Assembly: GCA_002695035.1 (NCBI GenBank) | Contig: NZNU01000039.1 | Coordinates: 1 to 64,000, forward strand | DNA: 64,000 bases | DNA from: Micavibrio sp. | Lineage (GTDB): Bacteria; Pseudomonadota; Alphaproteobacteria; Micavibrionales; Micavibrionaceae | Reading direction: 5' to 3' | Shown: positions 30,189-40,187 of the stretch, in pieces | Layout of the letters: each line of letters starts with the position of its first letter | How positions within the stretch are numbered: the first letter of the stretch is position 1 | Position numbers and translations under genes: made by a program | The notes under the pieces: generated by a model | What the model was told of the DNA's origin: nothing | The model's input: only the letters and a program-made list of their open reading frames with translations | The model's database searches: none

Positions 30189-31979
30189 ATGACCTTATCT
30201 TACGATATTATTGACCATGAATATGATGTTCTTGTAGTGGGCGGCGGCGGCTCGGGCCTGCGCGCCACTTTGGGGATGGCTGAAAAGGGTTTGAAAACAG
30301 CCTGTTTGACAAAAGTGTTCCCGACACGCTCCCACACTGTGGCGGCGCAGGGCGGAATTTCGGCAGCTCTTGGAAATATGGGCGAAGATGACTGGCGCTT
30401 CCATATGTATGACACCATCAAGGGGTCTGACTGGCTGGGCGATCAGGACGCAATTGAATATATGTGTAAAAACGCGCCAAAGGCGGTGCTTGAACTTGAA
30501 CATATGGGCGTGCCTTTCTCAAGAACGCAAGCCGGTAAAATTTACCAGCGTCCTTTCGGGGGTATGACAACGCATTTCGGCGAAGGTACGGCGCAACGTA
30601 CATGTGCAGCGGCTGACCGCACAGGCCACGCTATACTGCATACGCTATATTCAGAATGCCTGCGCCATTCAGCTGAATTTTTTATCGAGTATTTTGTTCT
30701 CGACCTTATTATGAGTAACGAAGGTGAATGCCTCGGCGTTATGGCTTTGGGCATGGAAGACGGGAAGATTCACCGTTTTCGCGGGCATATGACAGTCCTT
30801 GCAACCGGCGGATATGGCCGTGCTTATTTTTCCTGTACGTCTGCACATACTTGCACAGGTGACGGTAATGCGATGGTTTTACGCGCTGGTATTCCTTTGC
30901 AGGATATGGAGTTTGTTCAGTTCCACCCGACCGGAATTTACGGCGCTGGCTGTTTAATCACGGAAGGTGTGCGCGGAGAGGGGGGATATCTGACCAACTC
31001 TGAAGGTGAACGCTTTATGGAGCGGTACGCGCCATCGGCAAAGGATCTCGCTTCACGTGATGTTGTCTCCCGTTCAATGACGGTTGAAATTAACGAAGGC
31101 CGCGGTGTCGGCACAGAAAAAGACCACATCCATCTCCATCTTGAGCATCTGGACCCTGAAATCATTCATTCGCGTTTACCTGGTATTGCTGAAACGGCCC
31201 GCATTTTCTCAGGCGTTGATGTCACGAAAGAGCCAATCCCCGTATTACCAACAGTCCATTATAATATGGGCGGTATTCCAACGAATGTGCATACCGAAGT
31301 TGTAAACCCTACAGACACCGATCCGAACCATGTTGTGCCGGGTCTTATGGCCATTGGCGAGGCCGGATGTGTTTCTGTACACGGTGCCAACCGTCTCGGC
31401 TCAAACTCGCTTCTTGATCTGGTTGTGTTTGGTCGTGCCGCTGCTATCCGTGCGGCAGAGCTGATTACACCGGGTATGGGTCATAAACCTCTCGGTGATG
31501 ATAAGGGCGACCGCGCGTTGGCGCGTTTAGACCATATCCGCAATGCGAAGGGTTCAACATCTACGGCAGATTTGCGCATAAAGATGCAAAAAACCATGCA
31601 GAACCATGCAGCCGTTTTCCGCACAGGTGAGACTTTGTCTGCGGGTGTTCACAAAATCCATGAATGCTTTGACCAGAAACAGGATCTGGGTATCAAGGAC
31701 CGTTCACTGATTTTCAATACAGACCTTATTGAAACACTTGAGCTGGATAATCTACTTTCGCAGGCGGTTGCCACTATGGAATGTGCTGCCAATCGTGAAG
31801 AGTCCCGCGGCGCGCACTCCCGCGAAGACTTCACTGAACGTAACGATGATGAGTGGATGAAGCACTCTGTTATCTGGGTGGATGATAAAGGCGCAACCAA
31901 GATCGGTTACCGCCCCGTCACATTGCATACAATGACGGATGAGGTCGAGGCTGTCCCGCCTAAAAAGCGTGTCTATTGA
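30189..31979 (+). CDS. sdhA: succinate dehydrogenase flavoprotein subunit
   Basis: 596 residues. FAD-binding [12 protein letters not shown] near residue 17; the covalent flavin His is H49 in [15 protein letters not shown]. Catalytic-site segments [23 protein letters not shown] and [13 protein letters not shown] are present, as is [19 protein letters not shown]. The normal C terminus [15 protein letters not shown] is intact. It oxidises succinate to fumarate in the TCA cycle. sdhB does not follow; a lipid-modification fusion gene starts 12 bp after the stop. Confidence 0.97.
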
Positions 31980-31990
31980 TTTCGGACAAG

Positions 31991-34528
31991 ATGAATTTTT
32001 CCCGGGAACAGTTTTTTCACCTGATGAAAAAGGGCGCGCTCTGGGGCATTTTGGCTCTGGTTGTTGTTCCGCTCATCTTGCTGGCTCCTATTGAGGCGCA
32101 GCAGGTTTCTTTGCTTAAGACTGCTCTGTTCTCCCTTCTCTGGGCGGGCGTTCTTGTGGTATCAAAATTTGGACGTTTCCTTGTTTTGGGTCTAAAAATC
32201 TTTGCCCTGTTTTGTGTCATCGCGTTTACACACCGCCTGACATTTTACGAGATTCCTTTCGTCTCCTTGTTTACTTATTCTGCTGGATGCTTGGCGGTTT
32301 TGTCTGGTGGCTTCTTGCTTTCCAATATGAAACGCGCACCCTGGCGGCATTTTCTGAAAACTGCCTATTCGGTAATACTTATTTTTCTTTTTGCCGTACC
32401 TTTTATTTATCTGGGGCACTATCTGTTGTTTGATAGCCCATTGAATTCGGATGCTTATCTGGCGTTGCTGGACACAAATGTAAATGAGGCTTTTGAATAC
32501 ATTACCCAGTTCATAGGCTTTGGTGTTTTGCTTTCTGGGTTTGTTGTTTTGCTTCTTATATTTGTCGGGTGTCTTTATACACTGACTGACCGGCGCGGCC
32601 ATAAATGGCAGCTTGTACTTGCCGCCTTAATTTTATTGGTGGGCACAATTCGCGTGATTGATCAGCCAGATACAATTGACCTTTACGCCGGGTTTTGGGT
32701 TTATAAACAGCAATATGCTGAAGAGCTTGAAAAATTCCGGGAAATGCAAAAGACCTCTTCGGAGAATAAGGGGACATATCAGGCTGATACTGCAGCTGAA
32801 GGTGAAACCCATATATTGGTGATTGGGGAATCACTTAATAAATACCATATGGGGCTTTACGGCTATCCGCGTAACACAACACCGCAGCTTGATGCGCGTA
32901 TGGAGGGTGGAAATATGATTGCGCTGGACAAGGCATTCTCCAGCCATACTCACACAGTGCAGACCCTGACGTTAGCATTAACCACGGCCACACAAGAAAA
33001 TGAGCAGAAATATTATGCCTCGCCTACTATTATAGATATGGCGGAGGCCGCAGGTTATGACACGGCATGGTTGACAAATCAGGTCATGATGGGCAGCTGG
33101 GACAGTCCGATTTCAATTATTGCGCTGAGCGCCGATACCGTAAAAAAATATAATACCAATATTGGCGAGCATGCGAAAACCAATGATTTTGATGATGTTA
33201 TTATTGATGGAATAGAAGAGGCTTTGGCTAATGCATCAACCGAAAACAATCAGTTTATAGTTGTTCATTTAATGGGAAACCACGGCGATTATTGTCTGCG
33301 TTATCCGACGGAGTATGCAAAATTCCAAGATGATTTAACGCCCGAAATTTTTGGTAAGAAGCTTGCGGGCGATAATCGCCAGATTAATTGCTACGATAAC
33401 AGTGTGACCTTTAATGATTACGTTGTATCTTCGGTAATAGATAAGCTGGCTGGTGCTAAACGACTGGCAACTCTAACCTATTTATCCGACCACGCAGATG
33501 ATGTTATAAACGCAAAAGGGCATAATTCATCGATTTTTACGTATGATATGACGTCAATTCCATTTTTGGTTTGGGCCTCTGATGAGTATAAAGATAGTCA
33601 TAAAGAGAGATTAGACACGCTGCGCGAGCATGTTGATACCCCTTACGCAAATGAACAGTTATTTCATTATGTGCTTGGTAACCTTGGCATACGATCAGAT
33701 GTTTATGACCCCAAGCAGGACATTGCCAGCACTCTTTATGAGGGCGACAAGAACAATCTGGATATTGTGCACCGGAAATTCAAATGGAACAGCGCTGAAA
33801 ACCCTGTCTATGAATATGCAAGGTTGAACGATAAATGGAATGCAGATGAATATGGCCGCGTTCTGCCCCACCGCATCAACTCGCTTGGTAAGCTCATGGA
33901 TGTTCGCAAATATGGGTTGGACGGGTATGAAACCGATTTGATTTTTCAGGACGGCGTTTTCAAGGTCAGTCACGACCGGGAAGATGTACACAACCTGACT
34001 CTGAAAGACTTGCTGGAGTATGAGCTACCGGGCAAATCCATGAAAATCTGGCTGGATGTAAAAAATCTGGGCGACCAAACTTTTGAAGGCGCGCTTTCCA
34101 GGCTAACCGAGCTGGATGTGAAATATGATTTGAAGGACAGGGTTATTGTTGAAAGCTCAACACGCAGTGAAAAATTTGCTGATCTTTCAAATGCCGGCTT
34201 TCATATTTCTTATTACCTGCCGACCGGCCATATTGACGATTTGCTTGAGGAGAAGGATGAAAACGGTCTTAAGGCGGAGGCGCAACGCGTGTCCGAACAA
34301 GCAAAATTGCAAAATCTCTCAGCGGTTTCCTTTGATATAAAGCTTTATCCGTTTGTGACGGAGTATCTGGAACAGCTTTTGCCACAGGACATTGTCTATC
34401 ACACATGGGATTTAAAGAAATCTTATGAGGATAAAGATATCGAGGCCAAGCTGGGCGATACGAAATACTCTAGTAATAAGCGCATAAAAACCATACTCCT
34501 TGATCTTCCTTCCAAGTTCCATCTGTAG
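31991..34528 (+). CDS. phosphoethanolamine transferase fused to a glycerophosphodiesterase-like domain
   Basis: 845 residues from ATG 31991 (a TTG at 31976 would overlap sdhA). N-terminal about 240 residues: five or six TM helices. Then a periplasmic alkaline-phosphatase-type domain with ILVIGESLNKYHMGLYGYPR (metal-binding Glu), SHTHTVQTLTLALTTATQ (nucleophile Thr region), VVHLMGNHGDY and TYLSDHADDV, as in EptA/CptA. From about residue 610, HRINSLGKLMDVRKYGLDGY with ETD and KVSHD fits the H-R...E-x-D...H-D layout of GDPD phosphodiesterases, and a second half resembling the family follows. Probable role: attaching phosphoethanolamine to lipid A or another glycan; the GDPD part could process the lipid donor or product. 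It sits inside the sdh locus. Confidence 0.8.
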   Translation: MNFSREQFFHLMKKGALWGILALVVVPLILLAPIEAQQVSLLKTALFSLLWAGVLVVSKFGRFLVLGLKIFALFCVIAFTHRLTFYEIPFVSLFTYSAGCLAVLSGGFLLSNMKRAPWRHFLKTAYSVILIFLFAVPFIYLGHYLLFDSPLNSDAYLALLDTNVNEAFEYITQFIGFGVLLSGFVVLLLIFVGCLYTLTDRRGHKWQLVLAALILLVGTIRVIDQPDTIDLYAGFWVYKQQYAEELEKFREMQKTSSENKGTYQADTAAEGETHILVIGESLNKYHMGLYGYPRNTTPQLDARMEGGNMIALDKAFSSHTHTVQTLTLALTTATQENEQKYYASPTIIDMAEAAGYDTAWLTNQVMMGSWDSPISIIALSADTVKKYNTNIGEHAKTNDFDDVIIDGIEEALANASTENNQFIVVHLMGNHGDYCLRYPTEYAKFQDDLTPEIFGKKLAGDNRQINCYDNSVTFNDYVVSSVIDKLAGAKRLATLTYLSDHADDVINAKGHNSSIFTYDMTSIPFLVWASDEYKDSHKERLDTLREHVDTPYANEQLFHYVLGNLGIRSDVYDPKQDIASTLYEGDKNNLDIVHRKFKWNSAENPVYEYARLNDKWNADEYGRVLPHRINSLGKLMDVRKYGLDGYETDLIFQDGVFKVSHDREDVHNLTLKDLLEYELPGKSMKIWLDVKNLGDQTFEGALSRLTELDVKYDLKDRVIVESSTRSEKFADLSNAGFHISYYLPTGHIDDLLEEKDENGLKAEAQRVSEQAKLQNLSAVSFDIKLYPFVTEYLEQLLPQDIVYHTWDLKKSYEDKDIEAKLGDTKYSSNKRIKTILLDLPSKFHL

Positions 34529-34600
34529 TTTTTTTACGTCAAGTATTTAAGGGCTTTTTTAACCTTTTTCCTCCATGATGTGGCTGAAGGAGACTAAAGG

Positions 34601-35398
34601 GTGAAAAAATTAGGCGATGTATTTAGTGACGTTTTTGATGGTAAAAATCTGACAGACCGCATCTTTACGGGCGATTCCGCGTTTCTGGCCGATAAGCAGA
34701 ATAAGAACGCAATTTTTGAGGAATCCGCGGCCATGCCACATGAAATGTTAAAAAAGGCATTTCAGGGGCTAATCCTCCTTTTTTCAAAACAGGAACGCGA
34801 AATTGACAGGTTGAAAAAGGCCCTCGATAAGGCTGGTTACGATGTTCTAACGGGTTTGCCCGCGCGGGCGCGATTTGACGAACAGGCAAGGGATATTTTG
34901 CTTACCCAAAAACCTGATGCGTCCCAATCCTTAAAGTACATCATGCTTGATCTGGATGGTTTCAAAGAAATCAACGACACTGGCGGCCATGAAGCTGGAG
35001 ACCGCGCCTTGGAATTTTTTGCAGAAAAGATCCAAGAGCAGTTGCCGGAGGAAGCGGTTTTCGGGCGCGTAGGTGGCGATGAATTTGCCATTATAATGAA
35101 ATGGGATGGCGATAACGCGGATTTAAGAGACAATTTGCGCCAAGGTTTGTGGGAGCCCTTTTCTATGCGTGAGGGGCAATTCGCGCTTGGCGCCAGCATA
35201 GGGATAGCATCTTTTGAATATGATGCTGATTTTGAAGACAGGCTGGATGATAACTTGAAAGCAATTCAGGCTGAAAGTGATAATGGTGGGGATGGCGTTT
35301 ATAAGGATAAGGAACAGAAACACCAGCGGCTGGATATAGTGCGCGAAAAAGCCGGGATGCCCCTATTAAAAGACAACCCGGCGCTTCTCAATCGATAG
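34601..35398 (+). CDS. GGDEF-domain diguanylate cyclase
   Basis: 265 residues starting at GTG 34601 with Shine-Dalgarno GAAGGAG (34586-34592). The N-terminal 70 residues are helical with no known sensor. The GGDEF domain follows, with DVLTGLPARARFDEQ, MLDLDGFKEINDTGGHEAGDRAL and the intact active site G158-G-D-E-F162. No RxxD inhibitory site is visible five residues upstream. It makes cyclic di-GMP in the cytoplasm. It is 72 bp after the phosphoethanolamine-transferase fusion and probably cotranscribed. It is convergent with the aldo/keto reductase. Confidence 0.9.
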   Translation: MKKLGDVFSDVFDGKNLTDRIFTGDSAFLADKQNKNAIFEESAAMPHEMLKKAFQGLILLFSKQEREIDRLKKALDKAGYDVLTGLPARARFDEQARDILLTQKPDASQSLKYIMLDLDGFKEINDTGGHEAGDRALEFFAEKIQEQLPEEAVFGRVGGDEFAIIMKWDGDNADLRDNLRQGLWEPFSMREGQFALGASIGIASFEYDADFEDRLDDNLKAIQAESDNGGDGVYKDKEQKHQRLDIVREKAGMPLLKDNPALLNR

Positions 35399-35407
35399 TA
35401 TAATTTA

Positions 35408-36247
35408 TTAAGCGGCTTTTTTACCTGTGTCCCAATCAGGGGCAAAGTCAGGATCGACCTTGCGGCCATCCGGTCTCTGAAGATCGAAGATACGCTTCAT
35501 TTCATCCGTGGACAGTTGAAAGTCCATAATATCGAAATTTTCCTGCAAGTGATCTTCTGAGCCTGATTTTGGAATGGCGGCCACGCGGTCTTGCTGTAAT
35601 AGCCATCTTAAAGAAATCTGACCCGGTGTTTTGCCGTGAGTCTCTGCAATTTCCTTCATGGTTTTATCGTCAAAAATATCGCCACGACCCAAGGGAGAAT
35701 ATGCTGTTAGAAACATTTCACGCTTGCGGATGAAATCCAGAACCGGATCTTGTGAAAGATGCGGATGGTATTCCACCTGATTGCACACGATGTTTGCGCC
35801 GCATTCATTAATGGCCTTATCCATGTGGTCGACTGTGAAATTACTAACCCCTATGTAGCGTGTTTTCCCATTTTGGGATGTTTTCTCCAATGCATCCAAT
35901 GTTTCTTTCATTGATACGTCATCATTTGGCCAATGCAAAAGAACAAGGTCAACATAGTCAGTGCCAAGTTTTGACAATGATTCATCCAGTGACTTTTCCA
36001 AATCACCTGCCTCAAAACGGTCTGTCCAGATTTTAGTGGTCAGGAAAAATTCATCTCTTGGTACAGATGTATTTTTTATCGCTTTTCCAACATCCAGCTC
36101 ATTCTCATAGGCCTGTGCCGTATCTATATGGCGATATCCAATGTCCAGCGCAGTTTCCACCGCCTTTGTGCAGTCATCTCCTTTTAGCTGCCATGTCCCC
36201 ATTCCCAGCGCGGGTATGGAAATATTTGGTAACTCTATCGTAAACAT
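35408..36247 (-). CDS. aldo/keto reductase
   Basis: 279-residue TIM-barrel NADPH oxidoreductase. The catalytic tetrad is visible: Asp and Tyr in HIDTAQAYENELDVGKA, Lys in FFLTTKIWTD, His in VLLHWPND. The NADPH site AAIPKSGSEDHLQENFDI and the QVEYHPHL motif are present. Similar to 2,5-diketo-gluconate reductase and DkgA/B-type enzymes. The physiological substrate cannot be told from the sequence. It stands alone on the minus strand between the GGDEF gene and a stress-promoter gene. Confidence 0.92.
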   Translation of the reverse strand: MFTIELPNISIPALGMGTWQLKGDDCTKAVETALDIGYRHIDTAQAYENELDVGKAIKNTSVPRDEFFLTTKIWTDRFEAGDLEKSLDESLSKLGTDYVDLVLLHWPNDDVSMKETLDALEKTSQNGKTRYIGVSNFTVDHMDKAINECGANIVCNQVEYHPHLSQDPVLDFIRKREMFLTAYSPLGRGDIFDDKTMKEIAETHGKTPGQISLRWLLQQDRVAAIPKSGSEDHLQENFDIMDFQLSTDEMKRIFDLQRPDGRKVDPDFAPDWDTGKKAA

Positions 36248-36336
36248 ATCTTAAATCCTTTCTTTTTATCTTGCCCTACTAACGGTTGTGTCTGTCGGAA
36301 GTTCAGGAAAAATGACTCTTCGCGATTTAAATTATG

Positions 36337-36362
36337 GGAACTAAAATTGTGAGAGGTGCGTT
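36337..36362 (+). promoter_or_regulatory. putative EcfG-type (general stress) promoter
   Basis: GGAAC (36337-36341), 17-bp spacer, CGTT (36359-36362). This is the consensus -35/-10 pair for the alphaproteobacterial general-stress sigma factor EcfG. It lies 54 bp upstream of the 109-residue gene at 36417. A second site with the same spacing precedes the gene at 53530. Confidence 0.6.
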
Positions 36363-36416
36363 GTAAGGGCAAGGAACTGATAAAAACCTCAGTCCTGATT
36401 TGAATAGAGGTACATT

Positions 36417-36746
36417 ATGAAATATAGAACTGAAACTGGGCTTTCCGACAAAAGCTTAAATGACGCAACGGTAAAAGCCCTGTTCCGCATGCTGGAAAAT
36501 CTGGAAGATGAAGACCATGTCTATAAGATGAATATAGATAACAAGACAGCGGAAAATGGTCTCTTCACAGTAGAACTTACAGCTGAATATGATCAAGGCA
36601 TGCCATATTTTGACAGATTGGGGCATCTCCGCAAGCACCTCACCGATGCGATGAAGCGCCAGCGCAAGGCCAAAAAAGAACTGCGCTCAATGCCTGCGAA
36701 TGTGGTTGCACATATGTATGAAGACCATGATTCAGACGCTGCCTAA
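36417..36746 (+). CDS. hypothetical protein, probable general-stress gene
   Basis: 109 residues, highly charged, no signal or TM segment. Content is mixed alpha/beta: a central strand pair (NGLFTVELTAEYDQG) is followed by a basic helix (LRKHLTDAMKRQRKAKKEL). No family is recognised. The ATG at 36417 follows an AGAGG Shine-Dalgarno. A consensus EcfG-type promoter sits just upstream, so expression under general stress is inferred. Confidence 0.6.
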   Translation: MKYRTETGLSDKSLNDATVKALFRMLENLEDEDHVYKMNIDNKTAENGLFTVELTAEYDQGMPYFDRLGHLRKHLTDAMKRQRKAKKELRSMPANVVAHMYEDHDSDAA

Positions 36747-36761
36747 TCAGCGACACCCTTC

Positions 36762-38159
36762 TTAAAACTGAAAATATATAAATGGCTTGTAGCCCGTTGG
36801 CTGCAAGGCAAGTACAAAAGCTACTGCTATACCGAGTGCCGTGTAAAACGCTGTATCCTTCAGTACGACTACTTTTTCAAACCCGTCATATTTATGCCAA
36901 AAAATGTGAATGATGGCCAAGGCAGGAAAGCACAAGGTTGCGATAAGAGGTAACTGATCAACGCCTTGTGATGACCATGTCAGTATTGAGCTTGTCAAGC
37001 GCCACCCTGTTTCAAAATCCGGCGCCCGAAAGTAAATCCAGGCCAGATTAACAAAAGCAAAGGTCAATATAACCGACAATGCTGCCGGAAACCCTTTGAA
37101 TGAATTAAACTTTTCTTTTAAAGCATGATTAAAAGACAGCCCGGCTCCATGCAAAAACCCCCAAAAAACGAATGTCCATGCCGCGCCATGCCATAACCCC
37201 CCTAAAAGCATGGTCAGCATTAAATTGCGGTATCTCATTGCTGTTCCGTGGCGATTGCCACCAAGCGGGATGTAGAGATAGTCGCGCAGCCAGGTAGATA
37301 AAGAGATATGCCAGCGCCGCCAGAAATCGACCAGATTTCTTGCCAGATAAGGTGCTGCAAAGTTTTTCGGAAGATGAAACCCCAATAGTCCGGCAACGGC
37401 AATGGCCATATCGGTATAGCCTGAAAAATCACAGTAAATCTGTACGGCATACAGGCATACACCCATAGCCAGAGCGGAAGGCGAATATTGCTCTGGGGCT
37501 GCAAATATCAAATCAACGTAATAGGAAATATTGTCAGAAACACACGCCTTTTTAAAGAATCCGACCAGAAAAAGCAAAAGACATGTTTTTACTGCGACCT
37601 GATGCCATTCCCGCTTTTTTGTCAGCTGGGGCAGGAAATCGGCGGCACGTACAATCGGGCCTGCAACAAGCTGCGGAAAGAAAGCCACAAAAACAGCTAT
37701 ATCCAGAATATTTTTCTCGGCGCGTATGTTTTTACGGTAAACATCAATGGTATAGCTGAGGGTCTGAAATGTGTAAAAACTGATCCCGACAGGTAGGACA
37801 ATATTTAATGTTGTGGAATTTACGCTCATACCCAGCGTTGCCATTAACGCGGCGGCACTGTCGGTGAAAAAATTAAAATATTTGAAGAATCCCAAAATAC
37901 CCAGATTGCTCGCCAGGTTTAACATCAGCCATTTTTTACGGGTTTTTTGCTTATCGGAGGCCTCGATTTTTCGGGCAACGCAATAATCTATTCCGGTGGA
38001 TATAAGGATTAGGGATAAAAACCGCCAGTCCCACGCCGCGTAAAATCCATAGCTGGCAATCAGCAGCAGAGCTTTGCGGCCCATATTGCCCTTTAAAACC
38101 CAATAAAGCCCAAAAACGGCGGCAAAAAACAGGAAAAAACGAGGTTCAACAAAAAGCAT
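36762..38159 (-). CDS. MBOAT-family membrane O-acyltransferase (AlgI-like)
   Basis: 465 residues with about ten TM helices. AlgI/DltB-like features include NFDF-like FKYFNFFTDS, LPVGISFYTFQTLSYTIDVYR, FVAFFPQLVAGPIVRAADFLPQ, DFWRRWHISLSTWLRDYLYIP and the catalytic-His motif GGLWHGAAWTFVFWGFLHG. It transfers acyl (often acetyl) groups to extracellular polysaccharide. Its start codon shares 1 nt with the stop of the upstream SGNH-like gene (TAATG), so the two are cotranslated. Confidence 0.93.
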   Translation of the reverse strand: MLFVEPRFFLFFAAVFGLYWVLKGNMGRKALLLIASYGFYAAWDWRFLSLILISTGIDYCVARKIEASDKQKTRKKWLMLNLASNLGILGFFKYFNFFTDSAAALMATLGMSVNSTTLNIVLPVGISFYTFQTLSYTIDVYRKNIRAEKNILDIAVFVAFFPQLVAGPIVRAADFLPQLTKKREWHQVAVKTCLLLFLVGFFKKACVSDNISYYVDLIFAAPEQYSPSALAMGVCLYAVQIYCDFSGYTDMAIAVAGLLGFHLPKNFAAPYLARNLVDFWRRWHISLSTWLRDYLYIPLGGNRHGTAMRYRNLMLTMLLGGLWHGAAWTFVFWGFLHGAGLSFNHALKEKFNSFKGFPAALSVILTFAFVNLAWIYFRAPDFETGWRLTSSILTWSSQGVDQLPLIATLCFPALAIIHIFWHKYDGFEKVVVLKDTAFYTALGIAVAFVLALQPTGYKPFIYFQF

Positions 38160-39235
38160 TATTCACCTCCCCCACTGCTTTGGTAAATGTTACAGATCTG
38201 GCCGGCAATGCTTTTGGAAAAAAGGGTCGCGCCCTTCATATTTAGATGTGCTTCATAAAACACGTACTCTTTGTTCCATAGTCCTTTCGCATTTGCCCTC
38301 TCATATCCGTTAATGATGGCCAGTTCAGGGGCTGCTTTTTGGACTGCGGCAATAAGGGCCAGATCCTGCCTGTGCGTTTCTGTTTCCGGAAAAACAATAA
38401 AGGCAGGGCTGTTCCCTTGCTCGGTAATTTTATTGGCCAGAGTTTTTATCAGATTTGCCCGGCGCTTTGCCGCTTCAATCATATTTTCTGATGGAGGGGT
38501 AATGGCGCCCTGTTTTGCAAGGACGTTGTCCTGCCATTTATCGGCTCTTCCTTGAAAACGGCGGGCGCGTGTGGCTATTTCTTCATTGTTTTTAATATCC
38601 GCGCGCAAGTCAGGATAGCCGTTTTCTTTGTTCAGGCCAGGAAGATACTTCTCTGGGGTTACGCTGACATGTGGGAATAAAATTTTGCTCAAAAGTCCTA
38701 TGCCCAGAAATTTATAGGCGTATGCCCCTATTGAAAAGCCGCTTAATGCTGCTTTCTTCCATAATGGGGCCGGCAAAGACCATATATTTCGGTATCTGTC
38801 AGGCAGGTTGGCGTATGTTGTATAGCTTTGTGTTCTGACATTTGTCACGGCATTAAAATCAGGGCGTGGTGGCAGGGGATCGTTGAAAATAATGAGTTTG
38901 CCTGTCGTTCCTGTTTCCCCGAGCGTTGCAATAAAATCGGATAGCTCTTCCAGTACCAGTCCCGGCACACCAGCATTATAAACAGACAGGGGACAGTTGG
39001 CGGCTGCTTCAATTCCGTCCGGGTCAATATTGCGAAAGGTCTGAGATGTGCCCAGAAAAATCGCGTCATAGCTATCGGCTCTTTCGGATAGGGCTGCTTT
39101 CTTCGCAGACAAAACGCCCAAATCTTTTGGTTTTTCAAAGGGCCTCAAGGCAAGATGAAGTAGAGCCAACATCAAAATCAGCCCGGTCGCGGCAAAAACA
39201 GTATGTCTTAGAAAGGTGAAAAGATTTTCAATCAT
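38159..39235 (-). CDS. membrane-anchored SGNH/AlgX-like protein, partner of the MBOAT protein
   Basis: 358 residues. One N-terminal TM helix (about residues 11-28, HTVFAATGLILMLALLHLAL), then a periplasmic domain. AIFLGTSQTFRNIDPDGIEA matches the GxS block of SGNH/GDSL-like partners such as AlgJ/AlgX and DltD, and YNAGVPGLVLEELSDF and IIFNDPLPP resemble the following blocks. The C-terminal EAHLNMKGATLFSKSI carries a D/H-like catalytic His. With the MBOAT gene it likely O-acylates a surface glycan. Confidence 0.75.
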   Translation of the reverse strand: MIENLFTFLRHTVFAATGLILMLALLHLALRPFEKPKDLGVLSAKKAALSERADSYDAIFLGTSQTFRNIDPDGIEAAANCPLSVYNAGVPGLVLEELSDFIATLGETGTTGKLIIFNDPLPPRPDFNAVTNVRTQSYTTYANLPDRYRNIWSLPAPLWKKAALSGFSIGAYAYKFLGIGLLSKILFPHVSVTPEKYLPGLNKENGYPDLRADIKNNEEIATRARRFQGRADKWQDNVLAKQGAITPPSENMIEAAKRRANLIKTLANKITEQGNSPAFIVFPETETHRQDLALIAAVQKAAPELAIINGYERANAKGLWNKEYVFYEAHLNMKGATLFSKSIAGQICNIYQSSGGGE

Positions 39236-39392
39236 AACAGGGAAAAGTATGACAGAATTGCTCTTGAAGGCAATAAATTGAACGTATTAAGGAATAATTC
39301 ATCTTCTTGGGGCAGATTCGACCTTCACACTATTGTTAAAACACTGTATCTTAAATGCGCGAACTTAATTTATTTTAAAACGATACTGACCT

Positions 39393-40187
39393 ATGGCCGA
39401 ATTTACACTTCCTAAAAATTCCAAAGTTAAAACAGGCAAAACCATAAATGCCGCGAATGATGCTAAAAACAAAAAGACGTTTAAGGTGTATCGCTACGAT
39501 CCTGACACGGGTGAGAATCCTGCGCTGGATACGTATATCATCGATCGGGACAAATGCGGGCCGATGGTCTTGGATGCTATTATTTATATCAAGGATCAGG
39601 TTGATCCGACTTTAACATTCCGTCGTTCCTGTCGTGAGGGTATTTGCGGCTCATGCGCCATGAATATTGATGGTAAAAACACGCTGGCTTGCCTGAAGGC
39701 AATTGACGACACAAAAGGCGACATTAAAATTTATCCTTTACCGCATATGCCGGTTGTCAAAGATCTTGTTCCTGATCTGAACCATGTCTATGCCCAATAT
39801 GCGACAATTGAACCATGGATGAAAACAAAATCGTCTGCGCCGTCGAAGGAGCGTTTGCAGGCACCTGAAGATGCTGACCGCCTGAATGGTGAAGATGGCC
39901 ACGGGCCAGCCGCATGTATTCTATGTTTTTGTTGCTCAACATCCTGCCCAAGTTACTGGTGGAATGCCGACCGCTTTATGGGGCCTGCTGTCTTGTTGCA
40001 AGCTTATCGCTGGATTGCAGATACACGCGATGAAGCCACGGGGGAAAGGCTGGACCAGTTGGAAGATCCGTTCCGCCTGTATCGTTGCCACACAATTATG
40101 AATTGTACAAACACTTGCCCGAAGGGTCTTAACCCCGCAAAGGCAATCGCTGAAATTAAAAAACTCATGGTAGCCCGCAAGGCTTAA
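39393..40187 (+). CDS. sdhB: succinate dehydrogenase iron-sulfur subunit
   Basis: 264 residues. [2Fe-2S] ligands are in [20 protein letters not shown] and NTLAC, [4Fe-4S] in [16 protein letters not shown], and [3Fe-4S] in [19 protein letters not shown]. It transfers electrons from SdhA to quinone. It is separated from sdhCDA by 7.4 kb; a possible own promoter is TTCACA-N17-TATCTT in the 157-bp gap upstream. A DUF1761 gene follows at 22 bp. Confidence 0.96.

Follow-up and report, generated by a model that had tools for sequence, protein, structure and literature searches.

The window analysed here, a stretch of 64,000 nucleotides from the marine bacterium Micavibrio sp. (contig NZNU01000039.1), contains a gene that starts with an ATG codon 11 bases past sdhA and encodes, in one chain of 845 residues plus stop, a phosphoethanolamine (pEtN) transferase followed by a domain resembling glycerophosphodiesterases (GDPDs; Table 1). 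A second species of the genus (G002/L008) carries the frame uninterrupted at 82% identity, which excludes an assembly error. In the window the fused gene lies between sdhA and a GGDEF-like gene, and in a same-genus genome and in relatives these two genes are close together and the fused gene is absent, so that it is most simply explained as a late insertion into the sdh operon. A phage origin is unsupported, as no relative was found in phage and viral collections. In several genera of the family, the GGDEF-like gene itself follows sdhA at a short distance (window 34601-35398; L057, L059, L060, L064, and L065), and a conserved diguanylate-cyclase-like gene inside an sdh operon is unusual. The gap between sdhA and sdhB spans ~7.4 kb (window 31979-39393) and contains further genes, among them an MBOAT gene and an SGNH-like gene on the opposite strand. 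The genome of the window organism encodes LpxC and PS decarboxylase; no other PF00884 protein and no PF03009 match were found in it.

Table 1. The fused gene, its parts and its neighbours in the window
Feature	Position	Strand	Basis or remark
Fused gene, 845 aa: pEtN transferase + GDPD-like domain	31991..34528	+	Open frame; intact homologue in G002/L008
N-terminal membrane part (residues about 16-224)	32036..32662	+	Hydropathy scan, no transmembrane segment past residue 224
Periplasmic PF00884-type transferase domain (residues 258-582); E280, nucleophile T322, D500/H501, H431, H511	32762..33736	+	PF00884, PDB 5zzu EptC, residues
Linker (residues 583-622)	33737..33856	+	Between two matched regions; low pLDDT
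GDPD-superfamily-like C-terminal domain (residues 623-845)	33857..34525	+	Profiles, profile-profile comparison, folds
H627-R628 motif	33869..33874	+	
E647-x-D649 metal-ligand motif	33929..33937	+	
H661-D662 motif	33971..33976	+	
WLDVKNL (D689, K691; position of GDPD E-x-K)	34049..34069	+	
sdhA	30189..31979	+	Context, directly upstream
GGDEF-like gene	34601..35398	+	Context, downstream; close to sdhA without the fused gene in relatives

Residues about 1-585 form a CptA/EptC-like pEtN transferase in which the key catalytic residues are present. This half matches PF00884 at 2.4e-47 (162.2 bits against a cutoff of 25), PDB 5zzu (EptC) at 3.4e-47, and the NCBIfam models for CptA, EptA, and EptB at E values down to 6.7e-76, all under their curated cutoffs. 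Since the CptA models score only 256 against 404 bits and 227 against 900 bits, we regard it as CptA-like rather than as CptA proper. The threonine nucleophile and zinc ligands listed in Table 1 were placed by alignment to EptC, and H426 is likewise present. An identity as an MCR-type polymyxin resistance protein was rejected, the best MCR model scoring 86.7 against 1225 bits. By homology, the transferase half is predicted to move pEtN. The initial annotation had read the chain as a transferase followed by the GDPD motif layout (HR, ExD, and HD), which the open frame, the PF00884 match, and the motifs bear out. Its link to lipid A is not borne out: the enzymes closest to the transferase half are CptA/EptC, of the core or glycan type, and one of the fused relatives is encoded within a cluster of sugar-nucleotide genes. 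Because hydropathy confines the transmembrane segments to the part before residue 224, the C-terminal domain should be periplasmic, alongside the transferase domain.

In the C-terminal domain, the motifs follow in the order HR (627-628), ExD (647-649), HD (661-662), and WLDVKN (687-692), and the full GDPD catalytic set (H, R, E, D, H, acidic, and K) is kept as H627, R628, E647, D649, H661, D689, and K691. What is missing is the GDPD insertion between beta2 and alpha2, and the window domain is a divergent branch in this respect. The direct match to GDPD or PI-PLC families that might have been expected from the initial annotation did not appear: searched by itself, the C-terminal half gives no significant match to Pfam, to NCBIfam, or, as a single sequence, to the PDB, and we set aside what the direct search returned (such as SAM_KSR1 at 0.03) as chance matches. 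The GDPD identity of the domain is instead supported by profiles, relatives, and folds. A profile of six family members, none of them a PF03009 match, has a GDPD as its best PDB match (1o1z, E 0.0019), and GDPDs or a GDPD-like PLD account for five of its eight PDB matches up to E 10. With a 15-row profile, the PDB matches are mostly GDPD or GDPD-like PLD structures and include 7ww4 at 1.6e-5, 3no3 at 4.6e-4, and 8ghh at 0.0048. The relative L026 exceeds the PF03009 cutoff by itself (4.3e-8, 34.0 against 23.6 bits). Profile-profile comparison of the family with 15 canonical GDPDs scored 30.0, whereas 30 column shuffles reached at most 19.9, the reversed profile 11.1, and two other TIM barrels 17.2 and 14.5. 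HHalign's own probability is low at 13%, or 42% with three bridging members.

Two AF2 models built from two rows each alternate strands and helices and are weak (pLDDT 50 and 56, pTM 0.49-0.52). In a Foldseek search with the better of these low-confidence models (pLDDT 56, pTM 0.52), GDPDs took five of the first six ranks, and a protein with a GDPD-like domain took rank 4; the GDPD matches have probabilities of 0.98-1.00 and TM scores of about 0.4, and the E values of all matches are >0.001. That the resemblance is superficial and the domain has another fold is very improbable: the window sequence does lack a direct Pfam or PDB match and its model is of low confidence, but the profiles, the member above the PF03009 cutoff, the shuffles, and Foldseek all agree. 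We conclude from these sequence comparisons that the domain is a divergent branch of the GDPD superfamily and not a PF03009 member.

Searches of whole genomes and plasmids with tblastn and profiles yielded 17 further members, giving a family of 18; L012-L015 (weak matches inside unrelated genes) and L027 (five stop codons in the matched stretch) were left out. The domain is fused to a pEtN transferase in eight of the 18 homologues, one of them partial: the window protein, L008/G002, G257, G628, G672, G652 (with the N-terminal part missing from the frame), G814, and G860, whose contig begins within the gene and whose fusion was read from the tail alone. Among the 10 separate copies, nine adjoin a PF00884 transferase gene. 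Four of these partners are CptA-like (on an Acinetobacter baumannii plasmid, in Vibrio, in G739, whose PF00884 protein closely resembles the Vibrio partner, and in G701), one is a PF00884 protein with no NCBIfam match (G065), and four are phosphoglycerol-transferase/LtaS-like (G540, G448, and G684, all of one genus, and G942); L028 is the lone separate copy that has no transferase neighbour. Among 15 loci of ordinary GDPDs, drawn entirely from the order to which the window belongs, none lies beside a PF00884 transferase gene. The separate copies carry an N-terminal hydrophobic anchor, consistent with a location in the periplasm. The family is rare, occurring in 3 of 142 genomes of the order and in 4 of 369 genomes sampled from another class of the phylum. 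As the same pairing, fused or neighbouring, recurs across several bacterial families, the transferase and GDPD-like activities probably act together. The fused copies do not form one clade in the tree (AU p 0.014). As the window copy also clusters with the LtaS-adjacent copies at moderate support (81/89; long branches leave the details unsure), transferase partners have probably been swapped. On the small A. baumannii plasmid (L016, NZ_CP053221.1, 3402-5684), the CptA-like transferase gene and the GDPD-like gene, annotated as 'hypothetical protein', are followed by an IS5 transposase gene. Vibrio sp. THAF191d, a cultured environmental strain, is an example of a bacterium with the two genes apart.

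The catalytic residues are kept unevenly across the family. A catalytic His is lacking in 6 of the 18 members, namely G628, G652, and G672 (one genus), G257, G814, and the separate copy in G942, and five of these six are fused to transferases; hydrolysis therefore cannot be the role of every copy. The domain could instead serve as a binding module for glycan or phosphate, without catalysis, that keeps the acceptor in place for its transferase partner. This reading, which we consider unlikely for the window protein but the strongest of the alternatives, draws on the loss of the His mostly in fused members and on the pattern in G628, G652, and G672, where the equivalents of H661 and K691 are absent and D689 is replaced by E, yet N, E, D, W, ES, and SF are kept. 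It also draws on the lectin-like Laminin_G_3 domain added in G814 and on PDB 7ww4, matched in its GDPD-like part and named a glucanase. Against it, the full HR/ExD/H/DxK set is kept in the window, in L008, in L011, in the partial fusion L046 (where D stands in place of N630, outside this set), and in most separate copies. The G814 protein (L070 2756-6514) is 1253 aa long, combines the Laminin_G_3 domain with the pEtN transferase and a degenerate GDPD-like domain, and is encoded beside sugar-nucleotide synthesis genes. Fused transferases of 961-964 aa with an extra N-terminal region (L073 2853-5744 and L074 2601-5483) likewise have a GDPD-like domain lacking the H661 and K691 equivalents.

For the window protein, we favour, at a probability of roughly one half, the reading that the GDPD-like domain is a catalytic phosphodiesterase acting on its partner's product. 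LpgD and GlpQ use two histidines, together with a metal that acidic residues coordinate, to promote attack by a vicinal hydroxyl, giving a cyclic phosphate that is then hydrolysed (PMC10404611, PMC7086022), a mechanism that needs a free vicinal hydroxyl (PMC10404611). The window protein would thus be a CptA/EptC-like inner-membrane transferase bearing a divergent GDPD-superfamily phosphodiesterase domain on its periplasmic C-terminus. By homology, the transferase half would use T322 and zinc to move pEtN from PE onto a hydroxyl group on a glycan in the periplasm, such as the LPS core or a surface polysaccharide, and the GDPD-like half would then process the resulting phosphodiester. Extrapolating from GDPD chemistry, we infer the activity, substrate, and direction of cleavage of this domain as follows: the sugar would provide the attacking hydroxyl, ethanolamine would be expelled, and a phosphomonoester would stay on the glycan. 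We hold this specific ethanolamine-releasing reaction to be tentative and clearly less probable than the general reading. What speaks against it is that the partner is sometimes phosphoglycerol-transferase/LtaS-like, so ethanolamine specificity is not a family trait; an equivalent reaction would suit phosphoglycerol partners too. About as tentative is a more general form, in which the pair would be an ATP-free device for periplasmic glycan phosphorylation, the transferase moving pEtN or phosphoglycerol from a phospholipid to the glycan and the GDPD-like half stripping the alcohol to leave a phosphomonoester.

The initial annotation had suggested that a phosphodiesterase domain in this position could recycle or edit the lipid product or donor, a reasonable idea for the candidate domain. 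Editing of the donor is less likely, because diacyl PE has no free vicinal hydroxyl, on which the established GDPD mechanism relies (PMC10404611). As for recycling, the domain might scavenge lysophospholipids or glycerophosphodiesters (lysoPE or GPE) near the membrane as by-products of envelope remodelling. Such hydrolysis is the standard activity of GDPD, GlpQ, and LpgD (PMC10404611, PMC7086022), and the profile matches 8ghh, the LpgD of S. aureus; however, the by-product of the transferase is diacylglycerol rather than lysoPE or GPE (PMC10525099), so that scavenging would leave the specific pairing with transferases unexplained, and the GDPD insertion is missing. We rank scavenging slightly below the binding module. 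Still less probable is an eraser that would take off the phosphoalkanol group entirely and give back an undecorated glycan. Such turnover of decorations would fit the exchange of partners with phosphoglycerol-transferase/LtaS-like genes, and GlpQ trims GroP polymers (PMC7086022), but ethanolamine has no attacking hydroxyl for the cyclic-phosphate mechanism and full removal of pEtN would need another one.

Neither the fusion nor the pairing came up in the searchable literature, whose coverage is incomplete, so that novelty is unproven; a survey covering 69,814 MCR-like proteins is silent on it in its main text (PMC10285318), and the searchable papers describe no partner that processes the product of a pEtN transferase. 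Phosphoethanolamine transferases set surface charge and sensitivity to antimicrobial peptides, and a recurrent, partner-swapping GDPD-like domain that is invisible to Pfam would point directly to enzymes able to trim, convert, or recognise phosphoalkanol decorations, and to a testable route for phosphomonoesters made outside the cytoplasm. The ATP-free phosphorylation device, if real, would give two transferase families a shared finishing step in this domain and account for the swapping of partners.

Among known systems, the CptA/EptC-type transferases (NCBIfam NF007933/NF012179; PDB 5zzu) resemble the window protein over the whole transferase half, including the Thr nucleophile and the metal ligands, but the window protein stays under the curated cutoff (256 against 404 bits) and has about 260 extra C-terminal residues. 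Menorin/FAM151 (PF10223) is matched by one or two family members at E 0.02-0.05, which is not significant, and identities as Menorin or PI-PLC-X were dropped, the matches being weak only. With the GDPD family PF03009 (GlpQ, UgpQ, and LpgD), the window domain has the HR, ExD, H, and acidic-x-K motifs in common, and GDPDs are its best profile and fold matches; unlike them, it has no direct PF03009 match, spaces HD and acidic-x-K by 26 residues instead of the 58 of ordinary GDPDs, and has N-S right after HR-I where GDPDs have a longer loop. The GDPD-like phospholipase D enzymes (SMaseD/PLD, TIM barrel) also lack the long GDPD insert, and 9yd8 carries the motifs HRV, ExD, and W-[LF]-D-x-K-N. However, the 9yd8 score is weak (E 0.022-0.05), the similarity is far below the within-family level, and it is with transferases that the window family is associated.
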